This document shows positions 22,707 through 34,365 of a DNA stretch of 51,508 nucleotides, one piece after another; position 1 is the first letter of the stretch, and every line of letters starts with the position of its first letter. The notes under the pieces are model-generated. The model was not told the DNA's origin, did not search any database, and saw nothing but the letters and a program-made list of their open reading frames with translations. Made by a program: the position numbers and the translations under genes. This DNA is from Candidatus Proruminimicrobium quisquiliarum. Lineage in GTDB: Bacteria; Elusimicrobiota; Endomicrobiia; Endomicrobiales; Endomicrobiaceae. The stretch is taken from positions 1-51,508 of the forward strand of contig JAHDRN010000025.1 of assembly GCA_018433245.1 (NCBI GenBank), written 5' to 3'.

Positions 22707-23084
22707 ATGGTTAAAATTTTATTAGTTGATGATGAAGTTTTTGCTAGAGACGCGATGGCAAAAATAATTAAAAGAAAAGGATTTGAAGTTTTTTTAGCCG
22801 CTACCGGAGAGGAGTGCATATCTGTTTTTAAACAAGAAGACCCCCATGTTGTTTTTTTAGACATAGTTTTGCCCGATATTGACGGAGATCACATACATAA
22901 TTATTTAAGAGAGTTAAAAAAAGACGTCGCGATATATTATGTGACCGGAAGCGAAACTATTTTTACGGAAGAACAAGCTAACAGGGCGGGCGCTGTAGGT
23001 TATCTTCAAAAACCGGTTGACATGACTGAACTTTTCAAAGTTTTAGATAATATTAAGAAAAAATTTGAAGAGGAAAAAATTTGA
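22707..23084 (+). CDS. Stand-alone response-regulator receiver
   Basis: This 125-residue CheY-like domain has the acidic pocket VDDE (Asp8, Asp9), the phospho-acceptor FLDIVLPD (Asp52), Thr80 and Lys102 (LQKPVD). There is no output domain. It is the first gene of a four-gene cassette with a membrane protein, GH81 glucanase and LysM/M23 peptidase; the next gene overlaps by 4 bp. TATAAT sequences at 22664-22669 and 22677-22682 could be -10 elements. No kinase is adjacent in the same orientation; the kinase at 28751-30769 is the nearest. Confidence 0.93.
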   Translation: MVKILLVDDEVFARDAMAKIIKRKGFEVFLAATGEECISVFKQEDPHVVFLDIVLPDIDGDHIHNYLRELKKDVAIYYVTGSETIFTEEQANRAGAVGYLQKPVDMTELFKVLDNIKKKFEEEKI

Positions 23085-23944
23085 AAAAAATAATAAGTTT
23101 GTTCTTGGTTATTTGTTTGTCTGCAAATATTGCGTTTGCTTTTGATCCGTATGCCGGAACTGAAGAAGAGGCAGATAAAAAATCTCCGATTCAGCTTATC
23201 TACGGAATAGTTTTAACTTTAACGGGAGCTTTTCTGACTTATGACGGTTTTTCAAAAGTTGAATATGATACTTCAAAACCGTCGGTTGATTATATGACTG
23301 TTATACATGCAGAGTGGACTTCAAGCGATAAAGATTCACAAGACAAATATGTCTATACATTGACATCGGGACACGGACTTCCGACCAATCCTGCCGATCC
23401 TCCCATAGAATCAAATATTATTTATAACAGCGGTAATGTTGATTTGACAAACGTCAAAGTAGAAGTCAGATACTTTCATGTAAATCAGGATCCGATAGTA
23501 GTATGGCCAACAGCACCTCGCGAAGGTGATGAAACTACGGATATGTACGGCTATCGTATAGTTGATACAATTAGTCTTGCAAAAGGAGAATCAGTTACTT
23601 GGGAAGATACATTTGCATATTATGCAGCGGGCAGTGAAGTTCCGGGCGGTGTTCCAAGAGTGATAGATGAGACCATAGGCCTTTATCTGGGTGAAGCAAC
23701 TTCGATAATAATGGAAGTCAGATTAGATTTATCAAATAGTTATACAAAAATATATGAAAAAAGAAATAAAAGTGATTTAGAAGGTGTAGCCGGAATTGTT
23801 ATAGCAGGTGCAGGAATATATTTTCTAGCTGATTATTTTATAGGGCTTAAGAAATTTGACAGATATATGAAACAAAATCAGATGAACATAATGCTTGCAA
23901 GTTGCCCAAGCGAATATAAATTACTGTTTCAAAAGAGAATATGA
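23081..23944 (+). CDS. Exported/membrane protein with C-terminal helix, function unknown
   Basis: This 287-residue protein starts at TTG 23081 after GAGGAA, overlapping the receiver gene by 4 bp. It has a signal peptide (residues 1-20), a hydrophobic segment near 31-47, a beta-rich middle of about 170 residues (IIYNSGNVDLTNVKVEVRYFH resembles FxLYD-type domains), and a second hydrophobic segment near 237-255. A short basic tail follows. The two membrane segments bracket an outside domain. I do not recognise the family. It overlaps the GH81 gene by 4 bp, so it is probably made with it. Confidence 0.75.
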   Translation: MKKIISLFLVICLSANIAFAFDPYAGTEEEADKKSPIQLIYGIVLTLTGAFLTYDGFSKVEYDTSKPSVDYMTVIHAEWTSSDKDSQDKYVYTLTSGHGLPTNPADPPIESNIIYNSGNVDLTNVKVEVRYFHVNQDPIVVWPTAPREGDETTDMYGYRIVDTISLAKGESVTWEDTFAYYAAGSEVPGGVPRVIDETIGLYLGEATSIIMEVRLDLSNSYTKIYEKRNKSDLEGVAGIVIAGAGIYFLADYFIGLKKFDRYMKQNQMNIMLASCPSEYKLLFQKRI

Positions 23945-26712
23945 AAAAGATAGTAACAGTCTGTTTTCTGCTGTTTCTTTATACTTTTTGCTTTTCGGTT
24001 CCCGACCCTGGAGGAAATGCATCAATAAAACAGGATTTGTCCGGCACAGGCGTAGCAACGCCGGTTATTTCAAGAACCCCTTCTTTTTCAAAACCTTATC
24101 CGACAAACAAATGGTACAATTCTTTAATTTATAATGATTCTTCAAAGCCGTCATTGGGAATGTATACTCAGCCGCAGCTTCATGTTGTATCTTACCAGAC
24201 TGTTGCACAACAAAGATATACGGGTAGCCTTTTAATAGGTTATCCTATATTAACCGCATACAGCGGAGGAGGCTGTTTTACTTACGGCAGTGATTTGGCC
24301 GATCCCACAAGGTCTCAGCTTTGCATAACCGCGACTGATGCGTCTAACAATCCTAAAACAATAAATACAAGCGACGTAAAATTAAAATCTTTTTCCGATT
24401 GGGCTTGTACTATGGATAACGGTCAGTATGAAGCAACTTTCGGACAGGGAATGCTTTTTTCTTATTTTAATTTCAAAAACGGTTCAAACGCAATGATTTC
24501 TTTTCCGAATGCAATTGATGCAAATAATTCTTTTAAAGTTTATACGTCTTCTTCAGTTCAGGTAACAACAACAGATCCTTTTTATGCTGATAAATTAATA
24601 CTTGAAGTTAAATCTTATTATACCGGCAATTCATCATCAAGTACCAGATATTACGGAATATTTCTTCCGCCAGGTTCTCAGATAAAACTGAATGCATATT
24701 CTTCGTCCGTTCCGGCTAATTCAACACAATTTATAAATATAACGTTTCCTTCTTCGGCAAGATATATGTCCGTCGGGCTTATGACTTCAAAAGAAGACTT
24801 AAACGAATGGTATAAATATGCGTACAATTTTGTTACAGACACAAAAGCTTCGTATGATATAGACAGCAGATACAAAGTAACGACGAATTTTCAATTTATT
24901 TTTGACGTAAAAAGAGCTGATGCAGGACTTATTGAAAGCCAGACTCTTTTTGCAGTTATGCCTCATCAGTATAAAAATAACGAGCTTTCTCTGAATTATT
25001 TTAACGCCAAAGAATTTTCTTCAATAAGAGGAAGAATGAAAGCAGTCAGCGGAAATAAATTTTCCACAAAATACGGATTTTACGGCATAGTTCCGTTTTT
25101 AAACCATACTATATCTTCTTCGGTAAAAACACTGATAACAAATGCTCTTGCAACTGATAAAAATGCGAATATAGATCCGGCCGGGTATCAGGCGGACAAT
25201 ACATATTATTACGGTAAAAATTTGGCGAAAATCGCTAATCTTATAACAGTTGCCGATAATGCCGGAGACGCATCGGCAAAGAATTTGTTGATATCAAGAT
25301 TGAGAGCAGAACTTGCAAACTGGTTTACTTATTCAAGCGCCGAGACAAAAAAGTTTTTTGCTTATGATTCAAACTGGGGCGGACTGATAGGAATTAAAAC
25401 CGGATTCGGGACTGAAAAATACAGTGATCATCATTTTCATTACGGATATTTTATTTATGCATCCGCGATTCTTGCGATGTATGACGATGATTTTGCAAAC
25501 CGTTACGGCGGAATGGTTGAACTTCTTATAAAAGATATAGCAAATATTTCCCGTACAGACACGAATTTTCCGTATATGAGAAATTTTGATGTTTATGAAG
25601 GACACAGCTGGGCGGATGGAATGGGCGGTTCGGAAATTTCATCTTATTCTGATTCAATTAATGAAGAATCTTCATCAGAAGCAATGAATGCATGGGCCGC
25701 CATATATTTATGGGGTATGGCTACAAATAAAACTTCATATTCAAATTATTCAAACAGTGAAAATAATATAAAACTCGGAATATGGCTGTATACGAATAAT
25801 TATAATTCGATAAGAGACTACTATTTGGACGTTGATTCCGGAGACAGTGAAAAAGAAATATATCCTTCATCACTTTTAAGTACTTACGGCAACCACGGGT
25901 CAGTAGGAGTTTTGTTCGGAGGAAGAGCGTGGTATTGGGTATGGTGGACCCCGACCCACGGAGCAAGAGAAATAAAAGGCATTCAAATTTTTCCTCTGAC
26001 TCCGTCAATGTTGTATTTGGGGTATGATAAAGATTATGCACAAAATAATTTTTATGCAAAAATGCTTTCAGAAGCTCCGGGAGATTATTACTGGAACGAC
26101 GTTTGGGAAAAATATCACGCGTTGTTTGACCCGGATGCGGCATGGAATAACTTTGTTGCAAATCCGGTTGTTGACGACGGCGGAACAAGAAGTTTTACAT
26201 ATCATTTTATAAATTATTTTAAACAATACGGTGTGCAGGCTGCGGGATATAGTGCTGATTTTCCGTCTTATCTTGTTACGGAAGATTCTTTCGGCAAAAA
26301 AAATTATATGGTGTACAATCCTTTGCCTGTAAATAAAACGGTAAGATTTTACGACGGTAGCGACGCTTATATGGGAAGCGTTAACGTCAACGCCGGAACT
26401 TGCCTGATAACGTCAAATTTAATAACCGATGAAACGCCCGATAATATTTTGGTTTATCCGGTTCCGTATAAACCGGGAAGCGGTGGCAGTTATGACGCAG
26501 ACGGCATAACATTTCAGAATATAGGCGCAAACGCAAAAATAAAAATATTTAATATCGCCGGAGAACTTGTTTTTGAGACTGTTCAGAATTATTTTTTTGT
26601 CTGGGACGCAAAAAACAGATGCGGCAATAAAATCGCTTCCGGCGTATATATATATTACGTAACTTCAAACGGCGGAAAAACATTTAAAGGAAAAATTGCT
26701 GTTGAAAGATAA
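23941..26712 (+). CDS. Secreted GH81 endo-beta-1,3-glucanase with C-terminal sorting-like domain
   Basis: This 923-residue protein has a signal peptide (1-20). The N-terminal part has PYPTNKWYNSLIY, typical of GH81. The catalytic (alpha/alpha)6 part has YSDHHFHYGYFIYA (Asp496), FPYMRNFDVYEGHSWADGM and NEESSSEAMNAW (Glu576 and Glu580), matching GH81 acid/base regions. The enzyme would cut beta-1,3-glucan such as laminarin, callose or fungal wall. The last about 90 residues (VYPVPYKPG... IKIFNIAGELVFET... WDAKNRCGNKIASGVYIYYV) form a FlgD-like/type A sorting-like beta domain that often directs surface or extracellular placement. It overlaps the previous gene by 4 bp. Confidence 0.9.
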   Translation: MKKIVTVCFLLFLYTFCFSVPDPGGNASIKQDLSGTGVATPVISRTPSFSKPYPTNKWYNSLIYNDSSKPSLGMYTQPQLHVVSYQTVAQQRYTGSLLIGYPILTAYSGGGCFTYGSDLADPTRSQLCITATDASNNPKTINTSDVKLKSFSDWACTMDNGQYEATFGQGMLFSYFNFKNGSNAMISFPNAIDANNSFKVYTSSSVQVTTTDPFYADKLILEVKSYYTGNSSSSTRYYGIFLPPGSQIKLNAYSSSVPANSTQFINITFPSSARYMSVGLMTSKEDLNEWYKYAYNFVTDTKASYDIDSRYKVTTNFQFIFDVKRADAGLIESQTLFAVMPHQYKNNELSLNYFNAKEFSSIRGRMKAVSGNKFSTKYGFYGIVPFLNHTISSSVKTLITNALATDKNANIDPAGYQADNTYYYGKNLAKIANLITVADNAGDASAKNLLISRLRAELANWFTYSSAETKKFFAYDSNWGGLIGIKTGFGTEKYSDHHFHYGYFIYASAILAMYDDDFANRYGGMVELLIKDIANISRTDTNFPYMRNFDVYEGHSWADGMGGSEISSYSDSINEESSSEAMNAWAAIYLWGMATNKTSYSNYSNSENNIKLGIWLYTNNYNSIRDYYLDVDSGDSEKEIYPSSLLSTYGNHGSVGVLFGGRAWYWVWWTPTHGAREIKGIQIFPLTPSMLYLGYDKDYAQNNFYAKMLSEAPGDYYWNDVWEKYHALFDPDAAWNNFVANPVVDDGGTRSFTYHFINYFKQYGVQAAGYSADFPSYLVTEDSFGKKNYMVYNPLPVNKTVRFYDGSDAYMGSVNVNAGTCLITSNLITDETPDNILVYPVPYKPGSGGSYDADGITFQNIGANAKIKIFNIAGELVFETVQNYFFVWDAKNRCGNKIASGVYIYYVTSNGGKTFKGKIAVER

Positions 26713-26733: not shown

Positions 26734-27678
26734 ATGTTTAGAAATCTAATTATAAGATGGACCGTATTTTTTATAGTTTTAACAGTTGTTTATTTTGTCG
26801 TTAACGCAAAAGTTCATGCCGTCGCCGAGGCAAGTTTAAAATCCGCCATTACGGTTACGCTTCCGGTTTACACAAAAGACGAACTAATCAATAATCTTGA
26901 ATCAAGGCTGAAGTATTTATATTTAAAAACCAAAGGCGTAAAATTTTACGTTTATAAAGTTAAGAGAAGAGAAAATCTTTGGACAATAGCAAAAAAATAC
27001 GGATATTCCGTACATACAATCATAGGCTGTAATCCTCAGATGAAAACTTATAATGTAAACGAAGGGCAAAAACTCCTTATACCTAATGTCGGCGGTACTC
27101 TTCATCCGGTACAGCCTGAAGATACAATAAAAACCATATCGGAAAAATACGGCGTTGAAGAATCAGTTTTAAAAAATACAAATTTTGCTTTAAACGGCGA
27201 TTTGCGCCAAGAATTTTTTGTTTTTGTTCCGGGCAAAAGACCTTTGGTTAATTTATTAAATGAAAAGATGCAGCAAAAATATGCTCTCAGAGAACTTTTT
27301 GTTTCGCCTCTTGCGGGAAGAATTACCAGCGCTTTCGGAAAAAGAAGACATCCGGTTACAGGCAAAGCAAGCAGACACGGCGGCATAGATATAGCCGTTA
27401 AAGAAGGGTCATGGGTAGGAGCTGCGGCAAGCGGAGTCGTTACCGTAGCGAGTTACGACGTCGGACATTACGGCGTTGCCGTTTTTATTGATCATCAAAA
27501 CGGTTATATAACGCATTACGGGCATCTTTCAAAAATTTTGGTAAGAGTAGGCCAGAGAGTAAAACAAGGGCAGCTTATAGCAAGAAGCGGTTCTACCGGA
27601 AGATCAACCGGACCTCATCTTCATTTTACCGTAAAAAGAAACGGCGTGAACGTAGATCCGCTGCAGTTTTTGTGGTAA
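26734..27678 (+). CDS. LysM-M23 murein endopeptidase
   Basis: This 314-residue protein has an N-terminal membrane anchor or uncleaved signal (residues 8-25) and two LysM domains (YKVKRRENLWTIAKKYG and HPVQPEDTIKTISEKYG). A C-terminal M23 peptidase domain has its zinc residues intact: HGGIDIA and GPHLHF. It should cut peptidoglycan cross-links at the periplasmic face. A good AGAGG ribosome site precedes ATG 26734, 21 bp after the GH81 gene. It could help the glucanase pass the wall or serve general cell-wall turnover. Confidence 0.93.
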   Translation: MFRNLIIRWTVFFIVLTVVYFVVNAKVHAVAEASLKSAITVTLPVYTKDELINNLESRLKYLYLKTKGVKFYVYKVKRRENLWTIAKKYGYSVHTIIGCNPQMKTYNVNEGQKLLIPNVGGTLHPVQPEDTIKTISEKYGVEESVLKNTNFALNGDLRQEFFVFVPGKRPLVNLLNEKMQQKYALRELFVSPLAGRITSAFGKRRHPVTGKASRHGGIDIAVKEGSWVGAAASGVVTVASYDVGHYGVAVFIDHQNGYITHYGHLSKILVRVGQRVKQGQLIARSGSTGRSTGPHLHFTVKRNGVNVDPLQFLW

Positions 27679-27708
27679 ATTTAAAATTTTTATTTAAATT
27701 ATTTTGTC
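27678..27708. terminator. Possible bidirectional AT hairpin between convergent genes
   Basis: AATTTAAA (27678-27685) pairs with TTTAAATT (27693-27700) in the 20-bp gap between two convergent genes. T/A-rich flanks lie on both sides. It contains no G-C pairs, so it is weak. Confidence 0.3.
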
Positions 27709-28754
27709 AGATTATCCAAAATTAACTGTTTAATATTCGGCGCAACTTCTCTTTTAGGCAGAGCAAATACGCTTTTTATAATAAAATCAGCTGTTAAATC
27801 TTTTGCCTTTATCAGTTTTATATATTTATTGGCGTTTGAAGTGTCCAATTCCGAAAAATCCGTTGAATCAGTAAAAACTACAAAAGTTTCTATAAAAGGT
27901 CTGAATTTATCGTTTTTATCCGTAAAATTATTGTCTTTAAGTATCTTCTCAATTTTTTTGCTGACCTGTTTAAACTGGTTGTCCGATTGTTCAAAAATAT
28001 TTCTTCTTTTTTCCGAAACCATTTCCGTATTATTTGCCGTAATTTTAAGGGACTCGTTTATGCTTCCTGAAAGTTTTGCGTTAGGAAAATATTTTGTTTC
28101 AAACAATAATACGGTAAAAGGCAGCGGCGCGGCGGTAAAAGCTATAATATCTATTTCCTGCCCGTTAACTATAATATTTTGTTTCGGAGAGTAAGGTTCT
28201 TTCATAAATACCGTCGTCATTTTTGCAAGTCTGTCCGAAATTTCCTTTTCAAACATTCTTCCGGCCCCCAAGGATGCTTGCTTATCATGGTCTAATATTG
28301 AAGATAAAATAGTATTCTGCGACTGCAGATTTTTTATTTTATCGCCTATAGAATCAATAGAAAGCAACGCTTTTTTTATTTTGATTACAAGTTCCGTTTC
28401 GGTTACGGGTTTTGATATAAAATCAAAAATCATGTCTCCCGCAAGATTTGTCACGGATTGTCCGTAAACGCGTTCCATGGCGGTTAAAAGTATAATTTGT
28501 ATTGTCGGAGCGGTCTGTTTTATATAAGGCAAAATATCAAGTCCGGTCTCTCCTATTCCGAAATGAATATCAAGAATCAGCAAATCAATCGTATCGGGAT
28601 TGTTTAAAATAAATTTTTTAAGTTCCGTAGTCGTTCCAAACTGCATAACTTCAATATTTTGAAAATGTCTTAAAATAGTCCTTTCAAGAGATGATCTTAT
28701 ATTTAAATCATCGTCGGTTAAAGCTATTATTTTTTTCTTTTCGTCAGAACTCAT
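27699..28754 (-). CDS. Response regulator fused to a NERD nuclease-like domain
   Basis: This 351-residue protein begins with a complete receiver (acidic Asp14-16, phospho-acceptor Asp62, Thr91, Lys115). A helical linker (130-160) leads to a C-terminal domain with the NERD pattern: GRMFEKEI (Glu169/171), VNGQEIDIIAF (Asp202), TVLLFETKYF (Glu219-x-Lys221), DNQFKQVSKKIEKIL and FVVFTDSTDF. The D...ExK trio is that of the PD-(D/E)xK nucleases and is intact. NERD domains are usually free or fused to helicases or kinases; I know of no common receiver-NERD family. The gene overlaps the histidine kinase gene by 4 bp, so they form one two-component system. Role inferred: signal-controlled nucleic-acid cleavage or binding. 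Confidence 0.8.
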   Translation of the reverse strand: MSSDEKKKIIALTDDDLNIRSSLERTILRHFQNIEVMQFGTTTELKKFILNNPDTIDLLILDIHFGIGETGLDILPYIKQTAPTIQIILLTAMERVYGQSVTNLAGDMIFDFISKPVTETELVIKIKKALLSIDSIGDKIKNLQSQNTILSSILDHDKQASLGAGRMFEKEISDRLAKMTTVFMKEPYSPKQNIIVNGQEIDIIAFTAAPLPFTVLLFETKYFPNAKLSGSINESLKITANNTEMVSEKRRNIFEQSDNQFKQVSKKIEKILKDNNFTDKNDKFRPFIETFVVFTDSTDFSELDTSNANKYIKLIKAKDLTADFIIKSVFALPKREVAPNIKQLILDNLTK

Positions 28755-30769
28755 TTATCCTCCTCGTAAACCGGCAGAACAATAATCGTTTCAAGTCCTT
28801 TTTCGTCGTTAATGCCGGAATTTTTTGCCGAAACGGTTCCGTTTAAAATGCCCGCAAAATACGCGCTGTGCAGCGTTCCTTCTCCCAATCTGTCGCCTTT
28901 TGAACTTTGCAGCTGCTGTTTGTATATTTTTGACAGTGTAAGATCATCTAATCCGCCGGCGTTGTCAATGATTGAAATCATTAAATTCTTTTTATTTTCG
29001 CTTAAATAAACTGATACTTTTATTTTTGCGGAAAAATTATCGTTCATCAGCAGTTTCTGCAAAGCAAACACCGAGTTGTCTATTATATTTCTTACGGCTA
29101 TGAAAATGAGTCTGTTTATATAACAGTATAAACGGTCTTTATCGTTTAATTTTAACGCGTTTATTGAAATTTCAATATGCGGTTTTAATTTATAATTATA
29201 AAATTCTATTTGTTTTACGATAATTTCGTTAATGTAATTCAAATCGGTTTTATGAAGTTTGCCGTTGCTTAAGTCTTCAACGTGTTCTCTTGTCGTTTTC
29301 TGGTTTTCTAAAATTTCATCACTGTAAGGCTTAACTATTTTTTCATATACTTCCGACAGTATATCATTAAATCCCGTATTTGTTTTTTCCAGCTGGTTTA
29401 CAAGATCGTGCCGGGAACTTCTTAGAAGCTCAACGGTGTCTTCAGCCCAGTTTAATTCCAGAGACTGCAGCCTTTGAATCTGCGATTCAAAAGAATCCTT
29501 GATTTCGGATACGGTTTGTTTTTTTATAAGCTCGCTTTCCATCGCCGCGTTATAGGTTAGGTTATTATTGTATTTGTCAATCAATATAAAAATAACAAGC
29601 AGTATTATAAGCCACAAAAAATTGCTTGTATCCACGCTTGATCCGGATATCATTTCATAATATTTAAATGGAGTAATGCCGGTAAGATGTATGATGATTG
29701 ACAGGTATACGGCCACGATAAAAACGGAAAAAATAAAAGATACAAGTATAAATTTTGTGGTGTCTCTCTCAAAATCTTTTTTATTCAAAACGCTTCTGCG
29801 CAGATACAACAGATCGTCATTTATTTTAATGTTACGCAGCGGCAGAATCATTTTTAAAAATAAAATCAAAATAATGATTATAAGAGGAATAGAAATCATC
29901 TCAAGAAATAAAAAATTCTGGAAAGAGTGGATTGAAATCTTTTCCAAAATTTCCGGCAAAACCGTATGCGAAACGGTTTTTACGGTTGATATATAAATAT
30001 AACCGGATAATATAAATAATATAAATTCGGCCTTTGTTATGCTTGTCAAAAATATGTTAAGCCAGGATATATTTTTTTTTGTTAAGTTATACCGGTAATG
30101 TTCGGTCAGCATAACGGTGTTGTATTTTAAAATCGTTACGCAAATAATGCTGCCTATTAAAACCGTAAGTATCATATTCGGGATTTCCACGAAAGTTTCG
30201 GCCGTATAATTTCCTATTAAAGACAGAATTCCGCCTGTATTTTCTATGTTAAAAAGATTTCTGAAAGATTCCGTAAAATAAATGGAATAAGGCTGTTTAA
30301 ATATGGCGTCCTGAAAAACAACGTTCTTTATAATTGAAGAAAAAACGGAAATGACAAGCCCTGTTGCGATTCCGGCGAAAAGAATGAATCTCGCTGATAT
30401 GAAAAAAGTTTTTTTAATATCGTTGTCTACATTTGTTTTTGTATTGAAAATAGTAAGTTTGCCGGATTCGGCAAGCCATCCCCAGAAAAGAGCTCCGGTA
30501 ATGTTTATTACGGCAAAATAAATAAAATGAGGAGAAGTTATATTTGATAAAACGATAGGAGTCGTTATCGCCACAATGACAGCCCATACGCTCCCGATGG
30601 TGACTGCGGCAACAAATGTTCCCAGCATGTCAAAAGTTAAAAACCGGTAGCTGTTTTCATAAACGAAACTGTGTCCCGCCCAGTTTAATAACACTGAAAA
30701 ACACGCTATCAGAAAATAAAATTTCTTTTCGTTGACAGCCTTCAGTAAATTATCAGTAAAATTAGGCAT
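28751..30769 (-). CDS. Polytopic membrane histidine kinase
   Basis: ATG 30769 is chosen because an upstream in-frame start would run over the divergent promoter and gene; the product is then 672 residues. The first about 400 residues contain at least eight hydrophobic segments (for example around 17-30, 50-70, 125-145, 200-215, 247-262, 287-307, 340-362, 382-398). A helical/coiled-coil part has RHDLVNQL, with His454 as the likely phospho-acceptor (HDxxN type as in AgrC/CitA-like kinases). The ATPase domain has RNIIDNSVFAL (N box), IIDNAGG (G1) and GEGTLHSAYFAG (G2). It lies directly before the receiver-NERD gene. The sensed signal is unknown. Confidence 0.88.
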   Translation of the reverse strand: MPNFTDNLLKAVNEKKFYFLIACFSVLLNWAGHSFVYENSYRFLTFDMLGTFVAAVTIGSVWAVIVAITTPIVLSNITSPHFIYFAVINITGALFWGWLAESGKLTIFNTKTNVDNDIKKTFFISARFILFAGIATGLVISVFSSIIKNVVFQDAIFKQPYSIYFTESFRNLFNIENTGGILSLIGNYTAETFVEIPNMILTVLIGSIICVTILKYNTVMLTEHYRYNLTKKNISWLNIFLTSITKAEFILFILSGYIYISTVKTVSHTVLPEILEKISIHSFQNFLFLEMISIPLIIIILILFLKMILPLRNIKINDDLLYLRRSVLNKKDFERDTTKFILVSFIFSVFIVAVYLSIIIHLTGITPFKYYEMISGSSVDTSNFLWLIILLVIFILIDKYNNNLTYNAAMESELIKKQTVSEIKDSFESQIQRLQSLELNWAEDTVELLRSSRHDLVNQLEKTNTGFNDILSEVYEKIVKPYSDEILENQKTTREHVEDLSNGKLHKTDLNYINEIIVKQIEFYNYKLKPHIEISINALKLNDKDRLYCYINRLIFIAVRNIIDNSVFALQKLLMNDNFSAKIKVSVYLSENKKNLMISIIDNAGGLDDLTLSKIYKQQLQSSKGDRLGEGTLHSAYFAGILNGTVSAKNSGINDEKGLETIIVLPVYEEDK

Positions 30770-32808: not shown

Positions 32809-34365
32809 TTAAAATCTTCCGCCGAACGCAAAAGACACTTCCGCGTTTGACGGTATGCTTTGTCCGTCAAGAGTAGTCGTTTGCGAACTTACGGCTCCGG
32901 CAAAATCCAGGAAAATACATCCGGTAAGTATTCCGAATCCTCCCGTATATGTCCACGAGCCGTTGTCGGCGATATTTTTGTTAAGACCTGCGCGCAGGGG
33001 AATATTAAAGTGTTTTTTATTAAGTATATTATATTCAATACCGAATGCAAGCTGCTGAGAATCAAATCCTTCAACCATAGTTTTATTTTTAACGATATCC
33101 AAATCGCATGCGAATATGAGATTTTTTAACGGAGTTAAAGCCATGCCCGCGCGTATTTGCCTGTCCAAAGAATAGGAATCATTTTTCCACATCAGATAAT
33201 CGGGAGCGTCCAGAGGTTTTTGAGGCCTGTTGAAAGACGGATTGTTTATGTTTTTTATGACAAGCGCAAATTTCGGCTGAAACATTATATTTTTTTCAAA
33301 AAATCTTGAAAAATCAAAAGTTGTTCCCAAGTCAACGGACAGCTGAGTGGTAGTTCGTCTTGTTTTAAGGGCCTCGTCAATCGCGTTTCCGATGTTTTCA
33401 TTATCTTTTAATATCATTATTGAAGTCTGCGCCATTTGTCCCTGAATAATATTTAAATTTGCGCCTACCAGTATTCCTTTGTAAACTTCTTCTCCGTATC
33501 CTACGGAACATTCCGCAAAAACTCCGGCATCCACAAGAACCTGCGTTTCATTTTTATCATAGGTTTCTGATTCGCTTCCAAAGGCATTGATAAGATCTGC
33601 CGCATTTGGCAACTTGGCAACAATAATATCTGTCATTTTAGAGATAGCATTTTCAGTGGCGCCTACATCTAAAGCCATGTTAATCAGAGCAGCGGCCATT
33701 TGTTCGGAAGTTGTAGTGCCAGACAATCCTAACAGTGTTGTAAGCGCAGACTGAATGCCGGCATTATCTATAGCCGCTGATATATCATCCGCATATTGTT
33801 CATATCCTGAACGCACATCAAAATCATCAAGAGGCAATCCGCTTGAATCAGGTGACCCGATACCTATGTTTGATGTATCAACAAAAGGAGTTATTCCTGA
33901 TGTTCCGAATGTTCTAAAAGAAAAAGAGAGTTTTTTAAATCTGGAGAAAATTCCGGCGTTTAAATCAATAAGAGCGCCGGTTTTTGATTTTTGTAATTCG
34001 GCTATTAAAGCAAATCCCTCAAAAATAGCGGCCACATCCTGAGCTGTGGCTTTTAAGTTATTATCTATTTTTTCAGCCAGTTGGTTGTATTTGTCAGCCA
34101 TTTGCGTAAGTTTGTCAATTAAGGACAATGTTTTTCCGGTTGTTTCAATTTCAGCGCCGAGTAAAAGAGCTATTTCATTATTATTCTTGTCGCTTATTAT
34201 CGCAAGATTTGCAGGATTCCAGTATTGTGTGTCGGCGCCGTTAGCGACCGCGACTCCGGCTCCCCCCATGGCAACCGCCCGCGCGCCTACATTCTGCCAT
34301 TTATCGGCGTAACCTGCCGGAACAAAAAATATGATTGCAAAAAACATCAGAATACTTTTTTTCAT
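32809..34365 (-). CDS. Outer-membrane beta-barrel protein, TraF/FadL-like
   Basis: GGAGG lies 4 bases before ATG 34365, so this start is preferred over TTG 34380; the product has 518 residues. A signal peptide ends near PAGYA. WQNVGARAVAMGGAGVAVANGADTQYWNPANLA is the hallmark of the FadL/PorV-like and TraF_2 outer-membrane families. A helix-rich insertion (about 80-300) is followed by alternating beta strands, and the protein ends in Phe, as barrel proteins do. Role in transport or secretion is unknown. Convergent with the U32 gene (10-bp gap). Confidence 0.78.
   Translation of the reverse strand: MKKSILMFFAIIFFVPAGYADKWQNVGARAVAMGGAGVAVANGADTQYWNPANLAIISDKNNNEIALLLGAEIETTGKTLSLIDKLTQMADKYNQLAEKIDNNLKATAQDVAAIFEGFALIAELQKSKTGALIDLNAGIFSRFKKLSFSFRTFGTSGITPFVDTSNIGIGSPDSSGLPLDDFDVRSGYEQYADDISAAIDNAGIQSALTTLLGLSGTTTSEQMAAALINMALDVGATENAISKMTDIIVAKLPNAADLINAFGSESETYDKNETQVLVDAGVFAECSVGYGEEVYKGILVGANLNIIQGQMAQTSIMILKDNENIGNAIDEALKTRRTTTQLSVDLGTTFDFSRFFEKNIMFQPKFALVIKNINNPSFNRPQKPLDAPDYLMWKNDSYSLDRQIRAGMALTPLKNLIFACDLDIVKNKTMVEGFDSQQLAFGIEYNILNKKHFNIPLRAGLNKNIADNGSWTYTGGFGILTGCIFLDFAGAVSSQTTTLDGQSIPSNAEVSFAFGGRF

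Follow-up and report, generated by a model that had tools for sequence, protein, structure and literature searches.

A response regulator with a divergent, putatively nucleolytic NERD output domain in the Endomicrobiaceae

Introduction

Most response regulators act on transcription. Two overlapping genes in a 51,508-nucleotide stretch of DNA from Candidatus Proruminimicrobium quisquiliarum (contig JAHDRN010000025.1; this whole stretch is called the window below) raise the question of whether a two-component system might act on nucleic acid directly. Both lie on the minus strand: a polytopic histidine kinase of 672 residues counted from its ATG (28751–30769), and a 351-residue response regulator composed of a receiver, a coiled coil and a NERD domain (27699–28754). 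An initial annotation, made from the letters alone, had proposed that the regulator carries a nuclease in place of a DNA-binding output. Here we find that kinase and regulator are a dedicated, co-inherited pair that we have so far met only in the Endomicrobiaceae. The fold and key residues of the output domain support a nuclease, and its activity and control by phosphorylation are predicted; we put the chance that the pair is a dedicated two-component system with a nuclease as its direct output at slightly better than even, roughly 0.52.

Results

The output domain spans residues 164–351 of the regulator (27702–28265, minus strand). We searched the regulator with the NERD profile PF08378, a check that the initial annotation had suggested; it matched residues 165–295 with an E-value of 2.6e-5 and 25.1 bits, above the curated cut-off of 22.1. 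We then aligned 29 regulators, namely the window copy and 28 orthologues that are 56–85% identical to it. Glu169 (28248–28250), Asp202 (28149–28151), Glu219 (28098–28100) and Lys221 (28092–28094), the predicted catalytic positions, are invariant across this set, as is the signature pair Asn252 and Gln256. When aligned with 13 canonical NERDs, these six residues correspond to the signature positions G-x3-E, D, E-x-K and N-P-x-x-Q; the Asp202...Glu219-x-Lys221 trio had been recognised and correctly numbered from the start, and Glu169 and Asn252...Gln256 are additions to it. A short insertion, Pro210-Leu-Pro-Phe213, is also invariant among the regulators and is absent from the canonical NERDs. 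Searched against a viral library, the domain has as its top match an entry named 'Nuclease-related domain protein' (E 4.3e-4).

A fold search with the whole regulator returned receivers, so the NERD part was modelled alone, giving a mean predicted local distance difference test score of 87.4 and a predicted template modelling score of 0.86. The 50 best structural matches of this model are mostly PD-(D/E)xK nucleases, led by Upx (Z 9.7, root-mean-square deviation 3.5 over 125 residues) and including Can2 (Z 8.9), Nt.BspD6I (8.7), Cdn1 (8.5) and FokI (8.0), with McrC, NucC, EndoMS and SfsA also present. We take all nine to be members of the PD-(D/E)xK superfamily. Structure prediction, the second check proposed in the initial annotation, models the domain as a nuclease rather than a non-nuclease fold.

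Several results weigh against this assignment. At E ≤ 0.01, PF08378 is matched by 12 of the 29 regulators and missed by the other 17. A small local NERD profile gives the window copy an E-value of 0.068, compared with 0.078 for the best of 2000 shuffles, and a NERD profile–profile match reaches a probability of 39% (E 3.2e-4). At E ≤ 0.001, Foldseek of the NERD-only model against the PDB returned no solved structure. The Z-scores of the structural matches are middling, and values below 10 can reflect a common arrangement. A profile search of the NERD part against solved structures likewise gave chance-like matches only. Taking sequence, motif and predicted fold together, we nevertheless find that the output domain is best assigned as a divergent NERD within the PD-(D/E)xK superfamily.

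The domain might alternatively be a phosphodiesterase acting on small substrates, such as cyclic or short linear oligonucleotides, and serving a signalling role like that of PorX with no degradation of DNA or RNA. Can2, Cdn1 and Card1, all linked to cyclic nucleotides, are among the structural neighbours of the model, though they are matched in their C-terminal part, which is presumably their nuclease domain. PorX itself, from the PorX/PorY two-component system of type IX secretion in Bacteroidota, is a response regulator with a metal-dependent PglZ-type phosphodiesterase output that dimerises on activation, according to PMC10951265. In PorX, as described there, a three-helix bundle is followed by the output, an alkaline-phosphatase-like PglZ domain, whereas the output here is a NERD. 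The NCBIfam PorX model matches the receiver of our regulator only (26.1 bits against a cut-off of 300), and Pfam returned no PglZ match in the window regulator at E ≤ 10. PorX is the nearest known way of working, yet no output domain is shared. The fold and motif belong to the polymer-cutting PD-(D/E)xK nucleases, and the families listed for the genes next to the cassette include no recognisable cyclic-nucleotide synthase or sensor, which makes a small-substrate enzyme unlikely. As regards the NERD domain itself, the initial annotation was justified in claiming a new type of output; for enzymatic outputs the claim is too broad, since a regulator with a phosphodiesterase output was already known in PorX. 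The receiver–NERD regulator belongs to a known class of response regulators with enzymatic output, in which the NERD output is new.

Improbable to about the same degree is that the NERD does not cut and instead binds DNA, RNA or a protein partner, the protein being an unconventional regulator of transcription or of a post-transcriptional step. The output domain is basic (isoelectric point 9.1), and transcription is the usual target of response regulators. Other work is evidently possible for NERD domains: PMC9040797 describes SmdA of Staphylococcus aureus, which, like our regulator, has a NERD-type cytoplasmic domain and acts in the envelope and cell division, but which has no receiver and is without several of the most conserved NERD residues. 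In the 29 regulators, by contrast, every predicted catalytic position is kept despite identities as low as 56% to the window copy. An inactive domain would be expected to let some of these positions drift, so loss of cutting is unlikely.

The receiver occupies residues 10–126 (28377–28727, minus strand) and matches Response_reg (PF00072) with an E-value of 1.2e-10 and 42 bits, above the curated cut-off of 30.2; all 29 regulators match this family. The phospho-acceptor site is Asp62 (codon 28569–28571), and the surrounding pocket consists of Asp14/Asp15, Thr91 and Lys115. Because Asp14, Asp15, Asp62 and Lys115 are invariant across the alignment and position 91 is always Thr or Ser, the receiver looks phosphorylatable, and its description as complete in the initial annotation stands. 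Between receiver and NERD, the predicted model has a single helix at residues 119–154 (28293–28400, minus strand), with low confidence from residue 145. Leu143, Asn147 and Leu150 are 100% conserved and Leu154 97%, while the linker (131–163) is otherwise poorly conserved (mean 55%), and the Leu143-Asn147-Leu150-Leu154 spacing resembles that of a parallel coiled coil. Coiled-coil-relay regulators such as the diguanylate cyclase DgcR, a Foldseek match, share the receiver and long helix and differ in carrying another enzyme domain; such a coiled coil offers a route by which phosphorylation can reach an enzyme.

The stop codon of the kinase and the start of the regulator share a four-base ATGA overlap (28751–28754, minus strand), preceded by a GGAGGA-like ribosome site, and the earlier description of a regulator gene overlapping that of a polytopic histidine kinase proved accurate on both counts. 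The ratio of nonsynonymous to synonymous substitution rates (dN/dS) over the whole regulator gene is 0.03–0.08 in five of the seven pairs compared, from which we conclude that the gene is real beyond chance and under strong purifying selection. The two remaining pairs, both from Endomicrobiellum, give 0.43 and 0.35 on few synonymous changes, values consistent with relaxed constraint in protist endosymbionts.

The kinase has seven or more hydrophobic peaks and a conserved HD box containing the phospho-acceptor His454 (29408–29410, minus strand). His454, together with Asn561/Asn565, D602xGG and GEGT (N, G1 and G2 boxes), is invariant in 18 kinase orthologues. HATPase_c falls below the Pfam cut-off in the window kinase (E 0.0075); since 16 of the 18 orthologues match it at E ≤ 0.01 (best 9.3e-9) and the boxes are invariant, we regard the kinase as real. 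Its N-terminal membrane part (residues 22–107) bears a weak resemblance to the S component of energy-coupling factor transporters (28.7 bits against a cut-off of 180), a possible hint at ligand sensing inside the membrane.

We then followed both genes across genomes. A kinase profile found matches in 32 of 76 genomes of the Endomicrobiaceae, the family of the window, and a profile of the NERD part, run over 340 genomes of the phylum, matched the same 32; the 288 genomes not listed in its output gave no match. This shared occurrence indirectly supports phosphotransfer from kinase to regulator. The two genes are adjacent in 18 of the 20 regions fetched, and the two exceptions, G002 and G008, keep both genes on separate contigs, the G002 kinase having one in-frame stop. 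In one endosymbiont genome (G047, contig C19, 28962–31306), many stops break the kinase, and the regulator, truncated at its N-terminus, has no match before residue 94; here the two genes decay together.

A scan of 84,980 species genomes by two receiver peptide patterns, which a distant receiver–NERD protein with a different receiver would escape, yielded 37 loci, comprising the 28 full-length regulator orthologues and nine receiver-only matches. All 28 come from Endomicrobiaceae or uncultured Elusimicrobiota bins, from termite-gut, rumen and other samples according to their record titles, and no orthologue was found outside these groups in that scan. The NERD-part profile was also run over 282 genomes from the phylum to which one Myxococcales locus belongs and over five assorted genomes; it had no match in either set, a result that had no positive control and carries little weight. 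A plasmid search gave partial matches in three records, none spanning 80% of the query. The regulator tree groups broadly by host genus, so its descent is apparently vertical. The regulator is single-copy within one bacterial family, and together with its kinase it has long been established in the Endomicrobiaceae (Elusimicrobiota).

The recurrent neighbour of the pair, and its putative associate, is a LysM and M23 murein peptidase gene (26734–27678 on the plus strand in the window). It adjoins the kinase or the regulator in 23 of the 32 genomes, in three arrangements read from coordinates (10 in which it converges on the regulator, 11 in which it diverges from the kinase and 2 in which it is co-directional), these genomes being related and not independent events. 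The gene is clearly elsewhere or not found in four genomes (G004, G008, G015 and G019), and in five others (G021, G024, G032, G034 and G040) contig ends intervene or no match exists. Its adjacency, kept through re-arrangement, hints that the kinase–regulator pair is tied to the cell envelope. The gene is present in 30 of the 32 genomes with the pair; it also occurs in 16 of the 44 without it, which counts against such a tie, and the link may be inherited synteny.

The murein peptidase gene is preceded by a row of genes (22707–26712, plus strand) encoding a stand-alone CheY-like receiver (Response_reg, E 1.3e-25), a 287-residue protein that belongs to no Pfam family, and a GH81 glycosidase that has a CHU_C tail. 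The same run lies next to the kinase–regulator pair in several related genomes, so the kinase could have this stand-alone receiver as a further target. Elsewhere in the window, a TraF_2 (PF13729) match of 65.6 bits lies at 32809–34365 on the minus strand, downstream of a U32 peptidase gene.

The initial annotation had also raised anti-phage defence. In such a system, envelope stress during infection would activate a suicidal or phage-directed nuclease encoded on the chromosome. NERD nucleases are known in defence systems, and PADLOC gives a weak match of regulator residues 252–340 to MkoA (17.2 bits). We scanned 87 of 135 picked neighbouring frames; among those excluded were the kinases, the M23 genes and the run with the GH81 gene. 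The recurrent families among these 87 neighbours are housekeeping only (Metallophos in seven, DUF4416 in five, HhH-GPD in four), and neither PADLOC nor the family scans found a recurrent defence family beyond matches read as housekeeping cross-hits. The PADLOC matches consist of four REase_II matches beside four HhH-GPD repair proteins and single-member matches to other models; they were taken, by reading and not by inspecting each, as mainly housekeeping look-alikes. A defence island around the pair was accordingly rejected. Defence genes usually turn over rapidly, whereas this regulator is apparently inherited vertically and single-copy in one family, and we hold a defence role to be a poor prospect. 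Control of DNA uptake had been proposed as well; as control of natural transformation, by destroying or processing incoming DNA, it was rejected as highly improbable. Endomicrobium species do keep and express comEC, dprA and others. But comEC, found in 52 of 76 genomes, does not track the pair: 27 of the 32 genomes that have the pair have comEC, leaving five in which it was not found, and so do 25 of the 44 that lack the pair. Among 31 good genomes of the family, 30 have comEC and 17 the kinase, and the recurrent neighbours listed include no competence family.

Discussion

How the receiver–NERD arrangement relates to other NERD proteins was judged from the best-scoring PF08378 loci of this phylum and of the phylum of one deltaproteobacterial locus. 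Sixty loci (L118–L147 and L188–L217) were fetched and 58 frames scanned, two (L145 and L210) having failed a local profile. No receiver is among the families listed for these 58 best-scoring proteins; 23 carry a protein kinase domain and a few have helicase domains. Such fusions share with our regulator the same domain and the same signature positions, but differ in having no receiver, and the kinase-fused NERDs would be regulated, if at all, by Ser/Thr phosphorylation. A whole-genome PF08378 search did not report the window regulator; its lone match in that genome (G000) was a 121-residue frame elsewhere, and many short frames similar to it, presumably YraN-like, were returned. Since the regulator escaped and short frames crowd the results, such searches undercount divergent NERDs.

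Response_reg_2/HEF_HK elements are also two-component-like pairs tied to DNA enzymes, but in PMC8011034 the tie is a neighbourhood link to restriction–modification genes and the receiver family is another, whereas here receiver and nuclease-type domain sit in a single protein. Enzymatic outputs have a section of their own in a survey of archaeal response regulators (PMC5847659), the main text of which does not use the word nuclease. NERD was not found in PMC7159879 or PMC7824862. The open-licence literature searched yielded no report of a receiver–NERD protein, which is not to say that none is in print.

Returning to the proposed two-component system with a nuclease output, we suggest the following mechanism. 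A membrane-embedded kinase would sense a signal at or near the cell envelope, autophosphorylate on His454 and pass the phosphate to Asp62 of the regulator, as the conserved residues of both partners imply. The receiver would then dimerise, and the coiled coil, predicted from the extended helix and the conserved L-N-L-L heptad, would relay this change to the C-terminal domain. There the PD-(D/E)xK NERD, with Glu169, Asp202, Glu219, Lys221 and Gln256 around a putative metal site, would gain the ability to cut nucleic acid. Conservation throughout the lineage, next to a murein peptidase gene, points to a housekeeping function in the physiology of the envelope or the cell cycle rather than to defence.

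A bolder proposal, which we offer tentatively and consider somewhat less probable than its opposite, is that this is the first two-component pathway to end directly in nucleic acid cleavage, in which an envelope signal, acting through a dedicated kinase, aspartate phosphorylation and dimerisation, switches a PD-(D/E)xK nuclease on or off as part of a conserved housekeeping circuit of the Endomicrobiaceae. NERD itself is a widespread domain whose biochemistry had hardly been studied; according to the authors of the SmdA paper (PMC9040797), theirs was the first bacterial protein in which the function of a NERD was investigated. The protein kinase domains of 23 of the 58 other NERD proteins suggest, by analogy, that NERD may often be an effector of phospho-signalling, and the regulator described here, if its predicted activity is real, would give the domain a switchable and testable model. 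On the same condition, a two-component signal would act on DNA or RNA itself, without a transcription step, and in the Endomicrobiaceae such a circuit would perhaps couple the state of the cell wall to chromosome or RNA processing.

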